From: a virus
Length of the DNA: 48,745 nucleotides
Strand: one strand, 5' to 3'
Virus record (IMG/VR): IMGVR_UViG_3300009506_000053
Location: 1 to 48,745 of that record
Positions within the stretch are counted from its first letter, which is position 1. The number at the start of each line of letters is the position of its first letter. Below are positions 22,384 through 48,745 of this stretch, in pieces. Both the position numbers and the translations under genes were made by a program. The notes under the pieces were generated by a model. That model worked only from the letters and a program-made list of their open reading frames with translations, did no database searches and was not told where the DNA came from.

Positions 22384-23950
22384 CCCACCGTGCTCGCCAC
22401 CCTCTGAAGAAAGACTGCTCTCTGCCATTCTGCGCTCGCCAGATTGCTTCCTTGAGGTACGCCGAATCATCAATGCGGAGCAGTTCTATCTGCCGAAGAA
22501 CCGCATGCTCTATGAAACCCTGATCGATATCGTGGACTCGGGCCTCCCGCTGCAAGACGAAATCATTTACGACCGACTCAACCAGACGAAAATTTTTGAC
22601 CAGATTGGTGGCTCTGCCAGGGTGACCATGCTCCGCCGCCTGGACACGGAGCCCGAGGAGGCCACCACCCACGCTCGCATCATCGCGGACAGGGCCCTGC
22701 AGCGAGAGATCATGGTGGTCGGCAACAAGCTGAACAGGGAGGGCGCCACCGCAGACCCACACGAGCTGATCCACGAGACCCTCGAAACCATGGCCCGCAT
22801 GAACGGGAAGATCGGGAACGTGGGGGATCTGCGCATTCTGCAGTCATCCGTCACCGGCGAACAACTCGTCGCCACCGACATTCGCAGACCGGAGAGCATC
22901 GTTGGCGACGGCGTAGTGACGGAGAACAGCTTCTTCTTGCTTTACGGCAGGCCGGGACTAGGGAAGACGTGGCTGATGCTACAGTTGGCCATCAGCGTCG
23001 CTCTTGGGAAAGACTGGCTCGGCCTGCCGACCAGGAAGTCGAGAGTCGGAATCATCGAGATGGAGATGCATACCTACTATCTGAAGGAGCGCCTCGAGGC
23101 TTTGCTCTTGCACTTCCCGAACGAGGATGACCGCAGGGAAGCCCTGAAGAACATCGACATCATCTGCCGCCCGAACTACTCGGGCATCATCGATCTCAGC
23201 CAAGACTCGACCCGGAACGGCATCACGAGCTGGATCAGGGACCGTGGCATCGAGCTCGCCCTCATGGACGCGCTCTCGAGGCTGCATTACGCCAGGGAGA
23301 CCGACGCCCAGGAGATGGGCAAGGTACTCGGCAACATCGAGCAGATCAGAGACGAGACCAGGGTGGGGATCGGGAGCCTGCACCACGAGCCAAAGGGGCC
23401 CAGCGAGGGCAAGAAGGAGCTGTCAGATATCGACGCTGCCCGTGGAAGCTCGCGATTGCAGTCCGATCCCCATACCATGATGCGCCTCAAGGTGGTGCGC
23501 CAGCGCCTCTGTCTGGTCTTCCCGAAGATGAACCTCGGCCCAGAGGTCGAGCCCATATGGCTGGAGAAGATGGACACCGGGGGCGTGAAGCTCTGCGAAG
23601 CCCCAGCGGACATGGTGGCTGTCGCGGAACAGAATCGGGAACGTATCCGCTTCCACCTGGAGAAGTGCGACTACAACACCACGATCGATGCGCTGGCAGA
23701 GGCAGTGAGCATGAGCACCAGAACGGTGCGTCGACATCTGAAGGCCATGGGGCTGTCGGTCACGAGAGATGGGCTCGTGCAGAGTCTCTTTCCCCCCGGA
23801 GACTCCAGCCCCATTCCCAAACAGGAAAGGGCCCCCCGGTCGGAAGAGGGGGCCCCTGAAGGTGGCACCGTGCAGGCTGAAGAGGATGAGGCGGAAGATC
23901 CCGGTGCCGAAGATCTGTACCACCTCTTTGGTTCCGACCCGCCATCCTAG
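22355..23950 (+). CDS. Replicative helicase: DnaB N-domain, RepA-type ATPase and C-terminal winged helix
   Basis: A 531-residue protein. Residues ~18-130 match the DnaB N-terminal domain (EERLLSAILRSPDCF, then NRMLYETLIDI). A RecA-fold ATPase of the AAA_25/RepA type follows, with Walker A GRPGLGKT at 198-205 and a later ELALMDALSRLHYA Walker-B-like strand. Residues ~442-470 (TTIDALAEAVSMSTRTVRRH and on) form a helix-turn-helix/winged-helix unit. A Pro/Glu-rich acidic tail ends the protein. The added DNA-binding domain suggests that loader, origin recognition and helicase may be combined. No separate initiator, primase or polymerase gene is apparent. The stop overlaps the convergent methyltransferase stop by 4 bases. 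Confidence 0.8.
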   Translation: MSDSSQGTSSPPCSPPSEERLLSAILRSPDCFLEVRRIINAEQFYLPKNRMLYETLIDIVDSGLPLQDEIIYDRLNQTKIFDQIGGSARVTMLRRLDTEPEEATTHARIIADRALQREIMVVGNKLNREGATADPHELIHETLETMARMNGKIGNVGDLRILQSSVTGEQLVATDIRRPESIVGDGVVTENSFFLLYGRPGLGKTWLMLQLAISVALGKDWLGLPTRKSRVGIIEMEMHTYYLKERLEALLLHFPNEDDRREALKNIDIICRPNYSGIIDLSQDSTRNGITSWIRDRGIELALMDALSRLHYARETDAQEMGKVLGNIEQIRDETRVGIGSLHHEPKGPSEGKKELSDIDAARGSSRLQSDPHTMMRLKVVRQRLCLVFPKMNLGPEVEPIWLEKMDTGGVKLCEAPADMVAVAEQNRERIRFHLEKCDYNTTIDALAEAVSMSTRTVRRHLKAMGLSVTRDGLVQSLFPPGDSSPIPKQERAPRSEEGAPEGGTVQAEEDEAEDPGAEDLYHLFGSDPPS

Positions 23951-24870
23951 GTTCCGCTCAGAGTTCGCCACGCATGAGCCGCCACCAGCGGGACCACTCC
24001 GTTCCCAAGGGCTCGAAGCTGGTCCATCCGATAGGGAGGCCCATCAGCCATTCTACGAACCGCGGGTTCAAGACCCCGTGGCCATAGGCCTGATCCTGGA
24101 GGCGGCGGCCATGTCGGTATCTGCCCTCCTCCACGTCTCCACTGGGGCCTCGATCCGCATTGCTCGCTGCTGGCGTTGGGTAGGTCCTCGCCCACGTCTC
24201 CAGGCTCGGCCTCGCTGGGCCCACTCGCCCTGCCGCTCCTCCCTGGTTCGTCCCATAGGTCTGAGCCGCTGGCGTTGGGTAGAGTCGGATGGCGTCCGTC
24301 AGCGTCGTCCCCGAATGCCTCCCGCTCTCCGTCGAGTAACCCGCTGTTCCCGAACTCGCCGTCGCCGTGGGCCAGGACGAAGAGCCTCTGTCTCCGGTGT
24401 GGCGCCCCGATTTCTGACGCCGAGAAGAAGCCTGCCCAAATTGTGAAACCCAGGCGCCGAAGGTCACTCCACACGACTCGCAGTCCGTGATGCACGAGTC
24501 CCGGCACGTTCTCGAGAAAAACGACCCCTGGACCCACGTCCCCGATGATTCGGACGATGTCGGGCCAGAGCCATCGCTCGTCTTCGACGCCTCGTCGCTT
24601 CCCTGCGACGCTGAACGGCTGACACGGGAATCCCGCAGAGACGATATCCACGACGCCACGCCACGCTCTGCCATCGAAGGTCGTGAGATCGTCCCAGATA
24701 GGAGCTTTATCCAGGGTCTCGTCTTCCATCCTCGCCACGAGTACGGCCGCAGCAAAGGCTTCCCGCTCGACGTAACAGACAGTTCGATATGACTTGCCCA
24801 TGGCAAGTTTGAGTCCCAGTTCGAGCCCCCCAATCCCGGCACATAGAGCCAGGCCATTGAGCCTCCTCAC
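23947..24870 (-). CDS. DNA (cytosine-5) methyltransferase
   Basis: A 307-residue C5 methyltransferase. Motif I binds AdoMet (LCAGIGGLELGL, residues 9-20), the catalytic cysteine is Cys83 in GFPCQPFS, ENV is at 120-122, the HRRQRLF motif at 158-164, and motif X is near the C-terminus (LGNGVVPLVAA). The target-recognition region (~170-260) is short and Gly/Pro-rich, so the target site cannot be read. No restriction enzyme gene is nearby, so this is an orphan enzyme, probably for protection from host restriction. It starts at GTG 24870, overlapping the integrase stop by 4 bases. A long second open frame on the same strand (23958-24857) is a shadow. Confidence 0.9.
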   Translation of the reverse strand: MRRLNGLALCAGIGGLELGLKLAMGKSYRTVCYVEREAFAAAVLVARMEDETLDKAPIWDDLTTFDGRAWRGVVDIVSAGFPCQPFSVAGKRRGVEDERWLWPDIVRIIGDVGPGVVFLENVPGLVHHGLRVVWSDLRRLGFTIWAGFFSASEIGAPHRRQRLFVLAHGDGEFGNSGLLDGEREAFGDDADGRHPTLPNASGSDLWDEPGRSGRASGPSEAEPGDVGEDLPNASSEQCGSRPQWRRGGGQIPTWPPPPGSGLWPRGLEPAVRRMADGPPYRMDQLRALGNGVVPLVAAHAWRTLSGT

Positions 24871-26740: not shown

Positions 26741-27172
26741 TCAAGGTAAGCCGAGCCCCCGTCGTGCTTTTTTGAGCAGACGGTGGCCCTCGGCAGAACG
26801 GGGCTGGAATCGCTTGAATTCAGGCTTGTTGCGAAGGTACTCGAGCAGGATAGCGGCGGCACGACGCTTGGCGGAGAGCATGGGGAGCCACGCCCCCAAG
26901 ATGCGAACTATCTCTTTCGAGTCTGAGACCTTCCACCGCCAGACTTTCGGCCTCGACCTGAGGTTCTTCGCCGACCCGCCGTGATACCGCTGGAGACGCT
27001 CGACGGCCTCTTGCGAGTACATGTCGACCACAATTCCGGCAGTTCCGTTGGACTTGAGATGGACAGTTCCTTCCCCGTCAAAAAGCCCAGCGGCCCAAGA
27101 AGTGTTGCACGTTTTACAAGTTTCAGGGGAATGGCTACCCGGCCACGGATGTCCGAAGGCCCAGCGTCGCAA
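26741..27172 (-). CDS. LAGLIDADG-type homing endonuclease ORF (short, single motif)
   Basis: The C-terminal part of a 231-residue open frame encodes a single-motif LAGLIDADG domain: WAAGLFDGEG, then a strand-rich region (WRWKVSDSKEIVRILGAW), then a helical end with LLEYLRNKPEFKRF. The aromatic-GLFDGEG signature is specific for the family. Frame upstream of about residue 88 lies over the neighbouring gene and is unlikely to be coding. The only plausible start in the reduced region is TTG at 27172, without an evident ribosome-binding site. It overlaps the 3' part of the preceding gene in another frame. It could be an insertion, a degrading gene, or be expressed by frameshift from the upstream gene. 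Confidence 0.62.
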   Translation of the reverse strand: MRRWAFGHPWPGSHSPETCKTCNTSWAAGLFDGEGTVHLKSNGTAGIVVDMYSQEAVERLQRYHGGSAKNLRSRPKVWRWKVSDSKEIVRILGAWLPMLSAKRRAAAILLEYLRNKPEFKRFQPRSAEGHRLLKKARRGLGLP

Positions 27173-27330
27173 CCGAGATAGAGATTCAGCGAATCGATCC
27201 CAAGGAACCAGCCCAGTGTGCCCAGATGCTGCTCCCGGGAGGGGCGACAGAGATCCTCCGCCGTCCCGGCGGCGTCCACGTCCAGGTGAGCATCGATCCA
27301 CGTCACCAGGACCATCTGCTGCTTTGCCAT
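26908..27330 (-). CDS. Hypothetical first gene of the leftward operon, 3' end overlapped by the endonuclease ORF
   Basis: Begins MAKQQMVLVTWIDAHLD at ATG 27330. The first ~75 residues look real: a WIDAH opening, TLGWFLGIDSLNLYLGCDAG, then AIPLKLVKRATLLG. This pattern is common in small phage proteins that end near an I-P-hydrophobic segment. The remaining ~50 residues are Ser/Arg-rich and correspond to the sense strand of the LAGLIDADG ORF read in another frame, so the natural 3' end may have been altered. Function unknown. Confidence 0.55.
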   Translation of the reverse strand: MAKQQMVLVTWIDAHLDVDAAGTAEDLCRPSREQHLGTLGWFLGIDSLNLYLGCDAGPSDIRGRVAIPLKLVKRATLLGPLGFLTGKELSISSPTELPELWSTCTRKRPSSVSSGITAGRRRTSGRGRKSGGGRSQTRKR

Positions 27331-27467
27331 CGTCCATCCAACTCCAGGACGGTGTGTTACCAAGAACGGTAGGGGCAAAAAATCGAATAGGGAAGTGCTT
27401 TGTTGCCAAGTACTTGGCCGTCTGGAGCCCATACATTGCCGGTGAGAAATGAAATGAAAAGTGGTGT

Positions 27468-27559
27468 ATTCAACTAGACATTGAAATCTTGGGACCAAGA
27501 TTTCCAACCCCCGGTGTGTCCAGACGCACACGTGTCGATGCGACACATGTCGATGCGAC
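27468..27559 (-). promoter_or_regulatory. Leftward regulatory element A with paired operators
   Basis: This stretch lies within the 369-base gap 27331-27699. It contains GTGTCG-ATG-CGACAC (27532-27546) and, one period of 15-16 bases away, a second half-perfect copy (27548-27560). On the minus strand a GTTGAAT box lies downstream of the operators. The whole element is alignable with 29654-29730 upstream of the HerA-like gene (ATTCAAC, GAAAT, GATTT, ACCCCC and TGTGTC blocks in the same order). It is therefore read as a duplicated promoter/operator controlling both leftward operons. Confidence 0.68.
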
Positions 27560-27626
27560 TACTGACATGGCTGTCAGGCGATCTGTCAGGCGGTAGAGGG
27601 GGGGGAATGGGGGGTGAAAATGGAAA

Positions 27627-27646
27627 GGGCCCCGACCTTGGGGCCC
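27627..27646 (-). terminator. Hairpin terminator of the HerA/zinc-ribbon operon
   Basis: On the minus strand the order is GGGCCCC, a 6-base loop, GGGGCCC, then TTTCCATTTTC. It lies about 55 bases after the stop of the zinc-ribbon gene. The stem is perfect; the T-run is interrupted. Confidence 0.65.
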
Positions 27647-27699: not shown

Positions 27700-27966
27700 C
27701 TACTTCAGGCCCCTGGACCGACGCAATACCTCAGGCAGAGGCAAAGGACCATCGCCCCCATAGAAATCACTGATGGCCATCTGCTCTGCCTCCTCGCAAT
27801 GATTCGACCAGCACCCGTCGCACATCAGCTCCCCGAGGTGGTCGACCGCCCCACGATGCTTCCCGCACACCGTGCAGACCAAATGCTCGCTCCGGAGCCA
27901 CTTTGTGCAGCGCCGGCAGAGCGTGCCCTTGCGGATGACCCTCTCGCATTCCGCACACCGCTTCAC
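27700..27966 (-). CDS. Small double zinc-ribbon protein
   Basis: Eighty-eight residues containing two metal-binding clusters: CAEC ... CRRC near the N-terminus (residues ~4-20) and CTVC ... CDGC (~31-52), separated by a short linker, followed by an acidic/Pro tail. Such small ribbons usually mediate nucleic-acid or protein contact. The start GTG 27966 overlaps the stop of the HerA-like ATPase by 4 bases, so the two are tightly coupled and probably act together. Function unknown. Confidence 0.75.
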   Translation of the reverse strand: MKRCAECERVIRKGTLCRRCTKWLRSEHLVCTVCGKHRGAVDHLGELMCDGCWSNHCEEAEQMAISDFYGGDGPLPLPEVLRRSRGLK

Positions 27967-29594
27967 TTGGCACCATCCCCGTGATACGCAGCACGCAGCC
28001 TGTCGAGCTGCGCTTGCATCGATTCCAACCTCGCACGAGCCTCGAGCAATGCCTGAGACTTCTTGCGGTTCGGAGTCTTGAATGCAGAACGCAACGCCGT
28101 CCTGCGCCCGAATCGACCACCAAACACCGCCATGACACCCGTGCGCAACACATTCATCATCGCCTCGCCCGTAACATCACCCTCCAGCGCACTCACCGTG
28201 CGCTGCTGCTCACGTACAGCAACCTCGTGCTGGCGAATCGTCTCCAACATCACCTCTGCCTTGGTGTCCTGCACACTCTGGCCACCAATCATTTCGAGCT
28301 CCGCCGGCGTCATGGGCCCCTTGAGCCACGAGATCGTGTGGCGCGTCTTGATCACATCGAGGTTCCTGTACATGCTATGCACCAGAAACTCCCGCTTGCC
28401 CAAACCGGCAATCTGCTCCGAGATCTCGCCAGGATCCATGGGATTGTCACTCGAGGCAAGCCCGTCCATCAGGCGCTTCTTGTCACGCTCCATGGTGAGC
28501 TTCCCCACGAGCCACATGCCCATGTTGCTCATCATCTTGTAATCAATGTCCGCAGGGTTCTGCGTCGAGAGAATGCAGCCCAAACCAAACGCACGAGCCT
28601 GCTTCAGCAAGGTGAGCATGGGACGTTTCGGCGCGGGCATTCCGTTCGGCGGAAAATACCCCGCCACCTCGTCCATGTACAGCACAGCACGCAACTCGCT
28701 CGTGCCATGCTCAGAACGCATCCAAGAAACCAATTGGTTCAAAAGCAACGCCACGAAGAAATGGCGCTCTGGCTCCGAGAGATGCGCAATGTTCACGATG
28801 TTCACGATGGGATTGCCGTCCGTGATGAACATCTTGCCCGCATCGAGATCGTCCCCCACGCACCATGCCTCCCACGTAGGAGAAGCAACCATTGCGTTCA
28901 GGTCCATGGCCAAACCATGACGCTTTGCCCTTGGATAGAACGTCTCCACATCGATGGCACCCATGCGCGCAAAAGGCGGATCGAGCACATCACCGATCAG
29001 CATCGGCATGTTGACCCCCTCCCCCCGTTGCCACCTCTGCAGAATGCAGTGCGACAGAAGCACCACATCACCCGGCTTGCTCCTGGGGCGAGCCATTGCA
29101 AGAAGCGACATCGCAACAGTGGTCACATGCTGCGCCATGTCGACGTGCTTCCCGGGAACCTGCAATGCAGAGACAATCGAGAGCTGCTGCCCAGGGCCAC
29201 CACCTGGAGCGTAGATACGGAAACACAGATCCTCCCGATATTCCCTCAGAATCTCATCCGTGCAGCCGTCTGCTTCCCTGCCCCTGCGCCACTCGATCTC
29301 CGTGCGCATGGCAAGATCAGCAATGCTGATTCCCATGCGCTTCGCCTGCCCTCGATCCACAAAGTTCACGTATTCCGATGGCGAATCGAGAGCCAATAGC
29401 ATGTTGCAGAGGTCGCCCTTGGGATCGATCGCGATAATGGGAACACGCGCAAGGGCCAGCTCCTCGAGGAGCCCAATCGCAAGCCCCGTCTTGCCAGATC
29501 CAGTCATCCCCACAATGCACCCATGCGTCACGAGCTCCGATGGCTGGATCTCGTGCAACGCTCCACTGGACTTTGATTTTCCGATTTTCAGCAT
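27963..29594 (-). CDS. HerA-like P-loop ATPase
   Basis: A 543-residue protein of the HerA/FtsK superfamily (COG0433-like). Walker A is GMTGSGKT (29-36). Next comes the family's IDPKGDLCNMLL segment, and Walker B is LYMDE (Asp308-Glu309). After that come the CILSTQNPADIDYK sensor region and the WLVGKLTMERDK segment near the arginine-finger region. The C-terminal ~80 residues form a coiled coil (ARARLESMQAQLDRLRAAY). Cellular relatives carry a longer C-terminal part, so this is a shortened form. No NurA, Sir2 or nuclease domain is fused or adjacent; its partner is the zinc-ribbon gene that overlaps its stop. HerA ATPases form hexameric DNA motors and occur in several anti-phage systems. Here an exclusion or DNA-maintenance role is possible but unproven. 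Confidence 0.85.
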   Translation of the reverse strand: MLKIGKSKSSGALHEIQPSELVTHGCIVGMTGSGKTGLAIGLLEELALARVPIIAIDPKGDLCNMLLALDSPSEYVNFVDRGQAKRMGISIADLAMRTEIEWRRGREADGCTDEILREYREDLCFRIYAPGGGPGQQLSIVSALQVPGKHVDMAQHVTTVAMSLLAMARPRSKPGDVVLLSHCILQRWQRGEGVNMPMLIGDVLDPPFARMGAIDVETFYPRAKRHGLAMDLNAMVASPTWEAWCVGDDLDAGKMFITDGNPIVNIVNIAHLSEPERHFFVALLLNQLVSWMRSEHGTSELRAVLYMDEVAGYFPPNGMPAPKRPMLTLLKQARAFGLGCILSTQNPADIDYKMMSNMGMWLVGKLTMERDKKRLMDGLASSDNPMDPGEISEQIAGLGKREFLVHSMYRNLDVIKTRHTISWLKGPMTPAELEMIGGQSVQDTKAEVMLETIRQHEVAVREQQRTVSALEGDVTGEAMMNVLRTGVMAVFGGRFGRRTALRSAFKTPNRKKSQALLEARARLESMQAQLDRLRAAYHGDGAK

Positions 29595-29653: not shown

Positions 29654-29730
29654 ATTCAACGAGCCTCGAAATTTTAGGTCACGGGATTTTCGACCCCCCC
29701 TGTGTCGGAGCGACACGGGTCGAAGCGACA
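29654..29730 (-). promoter_or_regulatory. Leftward regulatory element B with paired operators
   Basis: Counterpart of element A, ending about 60 bases upstream of the HerA-like start. It carries a perfect GTGTCG-GAG-CGACAC (29702-29716) and a second weaker site GGTCG-AAG-CGACA 15 bases on. On the minus strand GTGACC, 17 bases and TTGAAT could serve as -35 and -10. Shared order of motifs with element A implies the same regulator. Confidence 0.68.
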
Positions 29731-29739
29731 TACCCCACA

Positions 29740-29811
29740 GATGAGTAGTACTGCGCGGATGAGTAGTACTGAACGGATGAGTAGTACTGCGCGCATGAGT
29801 AGTGCCGGGCC
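29740..29811. repeat. Four tandem 18-bp direct repeats
   Basis: Consecutive units start at 29740, 29758, 29776 and 29794. Units 1 and 3 are identical (GATGAGTAGTACTGCGCG), unit 2 differs by two bases, and unit 4 is degenerate after GTAGT. Each of the first three contains the palindrome AGTACT. There are no spacers, so this is not a CRISPR array. The repeats lie between the two divergent operons, next to the element B operators, and may be iterons or a cooperative operator. The surrounding gap 29595-30045 holds elements B, these repeats and a promoter, and no gene. Confidence 0.9.
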
Positions 29812-46544: not shown

Positions 46545-47038
46545 AGGATGAGTTCGATGAGACTCTGAAGAGGCGCGAGTTCATCGAGGCCTATCGGACG
46601 AGAAAGTCCAACGAGGCCCCCAGGGAGCTGATGGATCAAATCGGGGCCCCCCGGAGGATGCTGAGTTCCTGGCTATCGGACCAGACTTTCAGGGGCGAGC
46701 TCGATCAGATCGATTCGGAGCGTGTCTGGCTGGCCAGGGAGGTTGTCTACAGGAAGATCGGGGACATCTTCACGGTCATGGCAGAGCTGGCCTCGCAGAG
46801 GGGGCCGAACAGTCTCAGGGCAGCGGAGGTCATCTTCAGAGCCATCAGCCCGACGAAGGAACAGAAGTCCAAGGAAGAGGGCACAACGGAGCAGCAAGGA
46901 AGCGTGAGCACGGATGAGCTTGTACGGAGGAGGGACGAGCTACTCAAAATCCTCCAGGATGCCGAAGGAGATGTTGGAGGCGACGCGCAGGAAAGTGATG
47001 GAACTGGATCTGGAGATCCAGAAGAGGATTCTGATTGA
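46541..47038 (+). CDS. terS: Terminase small subunit
   Basis: About 165 residues from GTG 46541, after GGAGGG. An N-terminal helix-turn-helix-like part (FIEAYRTRKSNEAPRELMDQ, then RMLSSWLSDQTFRGEL) is followed by helical oligomerisation segments and a very acidic, Gly/Asp-rich C-terminus. It recognises the phage DNA and hands it to the large subunit. It precedes the large subunit gene and overlaps its frame by more than 100 bases if the first ATG there is used. Confidence 0.8.
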   Translation: MKDEFDETLKRREFIEAYRTRKSNEAPRELMDQIGAPRRMLSSWLSDQTFRGELDQIDSERVWLAREVVYRKIGDIFTVMAELASQRGPNSLRAAEVIFRAISPTKEQKSKEEGTTEQQGSVSTDELVRRRDELLKILQDAEGDVGGDAQESDGTGSGDPEEDSD

Positions 47039-48467
47039 ACGCTGCCGCGTCGACATCAACACATTCATCGAGTACGTCCTGGGGGTGAAGCAGCACCCCT
47101 TCCACAGGAAACTTCAGAATCTCGCCAACACGCATCAACACCTGTGTCTGGATGCGCCTGTCGAGCATGGGAAAAGTTTCCAGATGTCCGTGGCCAGGCC
47201 GCTCTGGCTGATCGGCAACAACCCCTATCATACGCTGGCCATCGTTTCCAACAGCATCGACCATCCGATTCGCTGCCTCGAGCTGATTCGCCAGCATCTG
47301 ATGCACAACGATAGGCTGCACGAGGTCTTCCCCAACCTGAAGCTGAAGCAGAACACGAAGACCGATGTGACCATCGAGCGTGGCAACACCTCGCTGAAAG
47401 ATCCCACGCTGCTGGCCGTCGGAATTGGCGGAATGATCATCGGTAGGCGTTTCTCTGGTCTCATCCTCGATGACATCCAGGACTTCGACAACACCTATAC
47501 CCACGAGCAGCGCCGGAAACTCTGGAGCATCCTGGAAAGCACGGTGCTGAATCGCGTGCTCCAGGAGGGGTTCGTGATCGACATCGGGACTCCATGGCAT
47601 GTGGAGGACGCCAGGGCCCAGCTCAGAAATATGGAGGGCTATCGCTATTTCCGCTTCGATGCGATGGACGGACTGTGGCCAGAAACGTACAAGGATCCCA
47701 CGACTGGCCACGTATATGGATTTCCGCCCGAGCGCCTCGAGCTGAAGCGCAAGCAGATGACGTCGATGGAATTTGACAGACAATATCGTTGTGTCAGCAG
47801 CAGCGGCAGTCTGGCCGTGTTCCGCAGTGAAATGTTCGACAAGGCGAAGAATATGGGCCGCGGATTAAACCTCGGTCGAAACGTATCGCCACAACTCGCT
47901 GTGGTCTCTGGAGTTGATCTTGCTCTTACAAAGCGAGAGACCGGCGATAAAACGGTGATCGTGACCGGGACAGTCGACGGAAACATCAAGGAGATTCTGG
48001 ACATCCGTGCTGGGCGCTGGGAGATCAACGAGATCGCCAAACAGATCCTGGAGGTGCTCCGACTGTACGGGGCCCAACATTACGGCTTCCGTGTCGAGAA
48101 TAATGCATGTCAGGGATACGTCCATCAGGTGTTGCAGAACAGGGAGATGATGAAATCCCTTGGGGCAACGGATCGAGAGTTCGAGAACATCAGGATCTAC
48201 TCGCACTACACGGGGCCGAAGAAGTATGACCCCATGGTCGGGATCAGGGCGCTGGCTGCTGATTTCGAGCACGAGCGTGTGAGGTTGCCTTGCAGTGAGG
48301 ATGGGGTGCCCGATCGGCATATCAGCGACCTGATCACCGGCTTCCTGAGCTGGGATCCATTGGCCCACACGAGCGACTTTGTGATGGCCTACTGGCTTTG
48401 GTATGAGCAGATCCGGCGGTTCATTCGAGTCGACGAGGGGGAGTTCAGCGATCTTGGTGTTTGGTAA
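46914..48467 (+). CDS. terL: Terminase large subunit (packaging ATPase-nuclease)
   Basis: 517 residues from ATG 46914. The ATPase has a P-loop variant PVEHGKS (82-88) and Walker B ILDD (Asp186-Asp187). A coupling segment with DIGTPWH follows. The RNase H-like nuclease begins VVSGVDLAL, with later acidic clusters (RALAADFEH, DRHISDLI). The protein motor packages DNA into the prohead and cuts concatemers. Start choice is open: 46914 (AAGGAAG upstream) gives long overlap with the small subunit; 46959, 46971 or 46998 are alternatives, and the last has GCAGGAAAG. Confidence 0.92.
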   Translation: MSLYGGGTSYSKSSRMPKEMLEATRRKVMELDLEIQKRILIERCRVDINTFIEYVLGVKQHPFHRKLQNLANTHQHLCLDAPVEHGKSFQMSVARPLWLIGNNPYHTLAIVSNSIDHPIRCLELIRQHLMHNDRLHEVFPNLKLKQNTKTDVTIERGNTSLKDPTLLAVGIGGMIIGRRFSGLILDDIQDFDNTYTHEQRRKLWSILESTVLNRVLQEGFVIDIGTPWHVEDARAQLRNMEGYRYFRFDAMDGLWPETYKDPTTGHVYGFPPERLELKRKQMTSMEFDRQYRCVSSSGSLAVFRSEMFDKAKNMGRGLNLGRNVSPQLAVVSGVDLALTKRETGDKTVIVTGTVDGNIKEILDIRAGRWEINEIAKQILEVLRLYGAQHYGFRVENNACQGYVHQVLQNREMMKSLGATDREFENIRIYSHYTGPKKYDPMVGIRALAADFEHERVRLPCSEDGVPDRHISDLITGFLSWDPLAHTSDFVMAYWLWYEQIRRFIRVDEGEFSDLGVW

Positions 48468-48533: not shown

Positions 48534-48745
48534 GTGGGCTTCCGAGATAGGGTTAGGGCATTCTTCAGAAGCTCCCCCTCACCATCCGAGGTCTATGCAT
48601 CCGGAGTCCTGGCTGGGCTTTTCCAGGCCATGGAAGAGCCTCCGGTTGACGCTGGGCCTCTAGGTGAGATCGAGCGGGACAATCCGACTCTCCATCGCGT
48701 GGTCCAGACGATCGCGACGGACGCCGCCGGCGTCGAGCTGGTCCT
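48534..48745 (+). CDS. Portal protein, true N-terminus (continues at base 1 across the circular junction)
   Basis: GTG 48534 opens a frame reading MGFRDRVRAFFRSSPSPSEV, then YASGVLAGLFQAMEE, a typical HK97-type portal start. It runs without a stop into the terminal repeat, where it is in frame with the portal gene at the window's left end. It adds 32 residues before the ATG at 29. GAGGGG lies 17 bases upstream, a little far. The short gap 48468-48533 after the terminase gene holds no other feature. Confidence 0.85.
   Translation, partial: MGFRDRVRAFFRSSPSPSEVYASGVLAGLFQAMEEPPVDAGPLGEIERDNPTLHRVVQTIATDAAGVELV
48602..48745. repeat. Right copy of the 144-bp terminal direct repeat
   Basis: Identical to bases 1-144; see the left copy. 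Together they show that the contig is circularly closed or terminally redundant. Confidence 0.97.

Follow-up and report, generated by a model that had tools for sequence, protein, structure and literature searches.

The closest described systems include motors of the HerA/FtsK clade, which is distinguished by a sensor glutamine ending core strand 4 and an arginine finger just upstream (PMC10853773). Among them are HerA of the HerA-NurA systems, represented by the Sulfolobus (4d2i) and Thermococcus (9x1m) proteins, and the anti-phage HerA proteins of SIR2-HerA (Nezha) and HerA-DUF4297. In DndH, a C-terminal HerA/FtsK domain (7es4) is joined in one protein to domains for restriction and DNA binding, and DndH acts together with DndF and DndG (PMC10853773). 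TdtA, the DNA-donation ATPase of Thermus, is a HerA/FtsK-clade motor encoded in an integrative element together with recombinase and methylase genes (PMC5365140).

The locus described here encodes a motor of the same clade in a temperate tailed phage, and its gene overlaps that of a small protein with a predicted double zinc ribbon. The ATPase-ribbon pair is real and unusual. The first-pass annotation read it as a HerA-superfamily ATPase in a candidate exclusion or DNA-maintenance system, an interpretation that was partly supported. The coordinates, lengths, strand and 4-bp overlap of the two genes were exact, and the pair indeed contains no NurA, Sir2 or nuclease partner.

Genome and gene neighborhood

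The window analyzed is the whole of a viral contig, IMG/VR record IMGVR_UViG_3300009506_000053 (48,745 nucleotides, ~48.7 kb). Because it carries 144-bp terminal direct repeats (1-144 and 48602-48745), the record is probably the complete genome of a tailed phage. A conventional, full-length TerL (46914-48467) and the portal (29-2146) adjoin across the end of the record, and the other tailed-phage genes found encode a protease, connectors, a tail protein, a DnaB-like helicase and a RuvC-like resolvase. Between 29.6 and 23.9 kb, Pfam and PHROGs scans of the minus strand identified the ATPase, the ribbon, a LAGLIDADG-like ORF, DUF6166, HTH_3, a tyrosine integrase (strong Pfam match) and a C5 methyltransferase. 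The latter is an orphan C5 cytosine methyltransferase (23947-24870, minus strand) and a member of the integrase operon; scans of the neighboring minus-strand proteins detected no restriction enzyme domain. At the head of this operon, the LAGLIDADG-like ORF overlaps an ORF in a different frame (26741-27436 and 26908-27546, both on the minus strand), and the latter begins MAKQQMVLVTWIDAHLDVD if read from an internal ATG. This overlap may represent a homing insertion or a frameshift.

When the ATPase, the ribbon and TerL were each searched against viral and genome contigs, no close relatives were returned, and the phage is therefore isolated. Likewise, named phages gave no match for the ATPase, for three of its viral relatives or for the ribbon.

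The ATPase is a HerA/FtsK-clade motor

The ATPase (27963-29594, minus strand) comprises 543 residues and is a short phage version of an uncharacterized bacterial family of ~800 residues. Its Walker A motif, GMTGSGKT, occupies residues 29-36 (29487-29510, minus strand), and G29 and T31-G37 are invariant in 40 sequences. The alignment and the structure model together place the Walker B residues Asp308-Glu309 (28668-28673, minus strand) at the close of strand 298-307, the sensor glutamine Gln345 (28560-28562, minus strand) at the close of strand 336-344, and a candidate arginine finger, Arg334 (28593-28595, minus strand), just upstream of that strand. Among 40 relatives, little or no variation is seen in any of these four elements, and Asp308-Glu309, Arg334 and Gln345 are invariant. 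The two Walker motifs named in the first-pass annotation are confirmed. The model (pLDDT 89) consists of the motor, followed at the C terminus by a hairpin of two helices, 444-491 and 509-542 (residues 444-542; 27969-28265, minus strand).

Pfam assigned DUF87/HerA_C to the ATPase with modest scores. The top Foldseek matches of the model were HerA, HerA-NurA, the C-terminal domain of DndH, SIR2-HerA and related pumps, the best being Sulfolobus HerA, Thermococcus HerA-NurA and the DndH domain. With Gln345 after strand 336-344, Arg334 before it and the Walker A and B (DE) motifs retained, the protein has the features that define the clade. In the model, the HAS barrel is absent: Walker A is already reached at residue 29, and short strands alone precede it. 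For this reason the protein is filed under the HerA/FtsK clade and not under HerA proper, so that the earlier assignment to the HerA superfamily holds for the motor and fails for HerA in the strict sense. Against the named models for HerA, CedB, TraD and anti-phage HerA, the ATPase scores far under the cut-offs (NCBIfam HerA_Thermprot, 20.4 bits; HerA_antiphage, 28.5 bits; cut-off 800 for both), and so do its relatives. In addition, Pfam and PHROGs scans of the neighboring genes revealed no NurA, and Pfam, PHROGs and PADLOC found no gene for a SIR2 or DUF4297 effector beside the ATPase. The ATPase is thus a P-loop motor of the HerA/FtsK clade, and the name "HerA system" is best avoided for the pair.

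The zinc-ribbon protein and its coupling to the ATPase

The second gene (27700-27966, minus strand) starts with GTG and encodes 88 residues. Its eight cysteines form four CxxC pairs in the two Cys4 clusters first described, C4/C7/C17/C20 and C31/C34/C49/C52, from which a double zinc ribbon is predicted. No other ORF of at least 60 residues in the phage record has four CxxC pairs, and 20 shuffles yielded none. The match to Pfam DZR_2 (PF18912) is weak (E=3.6e-4; 20.8 bits, under the gathering score of 27), and the structure model is poor (pLDDT 52). GC content at the three codon positions is 0.60/0.50/0.78, close to the 0.60/0.43/0.71 of the ATPase, which fits a genuine coding sequence. Identification as an HNH or endonuclease VII protein was rejected, as there was no Pfam match and the spacing from the DH to the next CxxC is too short. 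No relatives were detected in 50,697 phage records, and no homolog in five other viral records searched, which is weak evidence for a query of 88 residues.

The 3' end of the ATPase gene reads ...GCCAAGTGA, and the GTG start of the ribbon sits within its GTGA, so that the stop and start codons share 4 bp (27963-27966, minus strand). Judged from the sequence, this overlap supports translational coupling of the ribbon to the ATPase.

Operators and transcription signals

Two TGTCGNNGCGACA sites 15 bp apart form an operator pair upstream of the ATPase operon (29703-29730, sites at 29703 and 29718), and a matching pair lies upstream of the integrase/HTH/methyltransferase operon (27533-27560, sites at 27533 and 27548). 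Allowing at most one mismatch, TGTCGNNGCGACA has 12 matches in the phage genome, compared to 1.2 expected. Pairs with the 15-bp spacing occur at these two places only, while shuffles give 0.02 such pairs, and the claim of an operator pair common to both operons is borne out. Moreover, ~125 bp of the two upstream regions can be aligned; this similarity, together with the operator pairs, suggests that the control region was duplicated. The HTH protein would be the natural candidate for the regulator of both operons.

The pair had also been given its own operon with a terminator and a regulated promoter. An operator pair does precede it, but the other signals are less clear. The ribbon gene is followed by a plausible terminator, the hairpin GGGCCCC AAGGTC GGGGCCC TTT... 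(27627-27646, minus strand). This hairpin is suggestive only, since the scan yielded 4 terminators where shuffled sequences led one to expect 2.9, and a search for a consensus promoter at the two minus-strand operons came back empty. Nor does co-regulation with the integrase and HTH genes alone show expression in the lysogen, as had been proposed. An 18-bp tandem repeat, GATGAGTAGTACTGCGCG, is present in 3.6 copies in the divergent intergenic region (29740-29803, plus strand), and these repeats may be iterons, operators or a centromere.

Bacterial relatives of the ATPase

The bacterial family was found with a degenerate DNA pattern for the Walker A sequence GMTGSGKTGL, which matched at least 119 genome loci in Chloroflexota, Planctomycetota, Acidobacteriota, Actinomycetota, Verrucomicrobiota, Campylobacterota, Myxococcota and other phyla. 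Among Myxococcota, a match was obtained in 63 of 189 genomes. Full-length members are mostly ~750-900 residues long, usually about 800, and the gene is usually present in a single copy (eight genomes tested). The phage ATPase shares 35-45% identity with these relatives across ~430 residues and is shorter by ~300 residues; its end segment aligns partly with their glycine-rich C-terminal coil. Because of long branches, its placement in a tree is unreliable. At two loci (L119 and L022), the short ORFs probably stem from an 800-residue form that has been split, rather than being true mini versions. A literature search returned no papers on this family or on Mad8 of the MADS defence system.

The genomic context of the cellular members is heterogeneous. 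Their 507 flanking ORFs form tiny clusters only, the neighbors being mostly unrelated, and the adjacent Pfam domains are of many kinds; metabolic ones are frequent, and PLD and SNase proteins occur a few times. Of the cellular relatives, 26 have a co-directional gene close downstream, and in no case does that gene contain more than one CxxC motif. No ribbon lies beside any of 11 short Myxococcota copies. For cellular relatives, these counts refute an invariable pairing of motor and ribbon, and a fixed HerA-ribbon system is unsupported.

The short Myxococcota copies are paralogs of 451-487 residues, present in up to four copies per genome (G006, G172, G190, G046 and G075; loci L158-L168). In 11 of 11 loci, the gene immediately before the paralog encodes a protein of ~290-330 residues that looks mostly helical and is homologous from locus to locus; it is longer where the start was called farther upstream and is cut off by the contig end in L162. 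None of four members had a Pfam match. The helical protein and the short ATPase constitute a conserved, unnamed two-gene system, and these pairs imply that short versions of the ATPase elsewhere take dedicated partners other than the ribbon. Homology between this partner and an upstream DUF3150-like phage protein was unsupported by hhalign.

Viral relatives of the ATPase

Short versions of the ATPase, ~394-506 residues in length, were found in six further viral contigs. The gene that follows encodes a 102-residue ORF in L123, an HD-domain protein in L124, a Cys protein of ~73 residues whose start lies within a 4-bp ATGA overlap in L125, a 227-residue protein with one CxxC and a 4-bp overlap in L126, a 603-residue protein with one CxxC in L172, and a 50-residue protein with a hydrophobic helix, two CxxC and a 1-bp overlap in L174. 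A Cys pair is therefore present in the next gene of four of the six relatives, and in L125 and L174 it belongs to a small, translationally coupled protein. The Cys-pair protein after the viral ATPase may be treated as a lead.

In L123 (6519-9609), the ATPase lies among genes for AAA/MoxR-like ATPases and a DUF3150-like gene, and in L172 (5249-11008) among AAA/MoxR-like ATPase genes and a large zinc-motif protein. The ATPase of L125 (9818-11338) ends in a hydrophobic segment resembling a transmembrane helix. In the viral record of 166 kb, an ORF a few genes upstream of the ATPase reads like a DNA ligase in translation. L127/L175 was rejected as a family member, since its translations read as a plain FtsK-type protein near ParA/ParB-like genes.

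A tyrosine integrase was found in none of four viral records searched, which extend up to 166 kb. The motor thus does not look tied to lysogeny, although missing integrases prove little because the records may be fragments.

Possible functions of the pair

The explanation preferred here, with a probability of about 0.4, is that the phage captured a dsDNA translocase and that the ribbon was recruited as its adaptor, the two acting on the phage's own DNA as part of the integrase/repressor program. The ATPase would be a hexameric, ring-type translocase of the HerA/FtsK clade that pumps dsDNA, derived from the widespread bacterial family and shortened to the motor and the C-terminal hairpin. The co-translated ribbon would most likely bind DNA or protein and recruit, load or clamp the motor. 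The operon would be switched by the regulator it has in common with the integrase/HTH/methyltransferase operon, and the motor would most likely move the circular or integrating DNA of the phage during recombination, integration/excision or DNA-end handling.

The strongest competing explanation is superinfection exclusion, possible yet less probable than the translocase-adaptor explanation. Under it, the two genes form a defence operon of the moron type that is turned on together with the integrase/repressor program, the motor acts on incoming DNA and the co-regulated C5 methyltransferase perhaps marks self DNA. The position beside the integrase, HTH and methyltransferase genes, the common operator and the finding that Mad8 of MADS is the closest PADLOC model across the whole motor (residues 23-380, E=2.7e-15) are consistent with such a role, as is the published account of prophages carrying antiviral hotspots (PMC9122126). 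However, neither the ATPase nor the ribbon contains a nuclease, NADase or other effector domain. Defence models are also matched by many HerA-superfamily motors, and the PADLOC mad8 model itself by all 40 relatives of the ATPase. Furthermore, the Pfam domains of neighboring genes show no defence-island pattern around the bacterial relatives, and some viral relatives occur in records where no integrase was detected. The specific exclusion or DNA-maintenance role in the first-pass annotation is unsupported.

It is unlikely, though conceivable, that the two proteins share nothing more than a transcript, with the captured bacterial motor keeping its ancestral role and the ribbon being an unrelated small phage regulator. 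The absence of the ribbon from every cellular relative examined, and of a homologous one from the other viral relatives searched, points in this direction, and these phages have many small proteins with a Cys pair (at least one CxxC in 34 of 194 ORFs of the viral loci, about 17.5%). The translational coupling argues against it, and so does a Cys-pair protein after the motor in five of seven viral cases, including this phage, in a post hoc count of non-homologous proteins. The refuting condition named in the first-pass annotation, relatives lacking the ribbon, therefore largely applies, but two of the six viral relatives had a different, coupled small Cys-rich protein, which preserves part of that idea. 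A more general proposal, drawn from this phage (88 residues), L125 (~73 residues) and L174 (50 residues, with the hydrophobic helix), is that short phage ATPases repeatedly recruit a small coupled zinc-binding protein and form an undescribed motor-plus-clamp module acting on DNA. This is rather doubtful; if true, the module might, for example, bar competing genomes or segregate the phage's own.

A role in partition or maintenance, with the motor and ribbon adaptor using the upstream 18-bp tandem repeats as a centromere, is very improbable. The repeat array does lie between the ATPase operon and the divergent genes, giving a motor-adaptor-repeat layout, but the tyrosine integrase leads one to expect chromosomal integration, no ParB_N domain was found in the phage record and the repeats may equally control the rightward promoter. 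Finally, a virion or packaging-related ATPase can practically be dismissed: despite a match to phrog_2666, a PHROG labeled terminase large subunit (E=2e-13), the gene lies on the opposite strand among lysogeny genes, and the phage has its own TerL (near full-length match, E=4e-57) adjoining the portal gene, so the ATPase is not the packaging motor.

Comparison with known systems

HerA of HerA-NurA shares the motor fold of the phage ATPase (Foldseek E ~2e-14), as well as the Walker A and B motifs, the sensor glutamine and the arginine finger. In contrast, identity between them is 14-15%, and the phage protein has neither a HAS barrel nor NurA and is accompanied by the ribbon instead. The anti-phage HerA proteins belong to the same ATPase clade and have the same fold, while the phage pair lacks their SIR2 or DUF4297 effector. 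Mad8 is the best PADLOC match of the ATPase, but the two-gene operon shows no MADS gene set: in PADLOC scans of four proteins of the region, no other mad model appeared among the matches listed. TdtA differs from the phage ATPase in having an upstream NurA gene, a type IIG enzyme and a membrane-linked role in DNA transfer. The HerA/FtsK domain of DndH, which possesses no HAS barrel either, matches the phage motor with E=1.8e-13.

The ~800-residue GMTGSGKTGL family (DUF87/HerA_C in Pfam) consists of true homologs of the phage ATPase, which differ from it in ~300 extra C-terminal residues and the lack of a ribbon neighbor. Compact phage versions with a tiny partner and a recognizable operator offer a tractable route to the role of this common bacterial family. 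Should the ribbon steer the motor, the pair would represent a HerA/FtsK pump equipped with a zinc adaptor in place of a nuclease or NADase partner.
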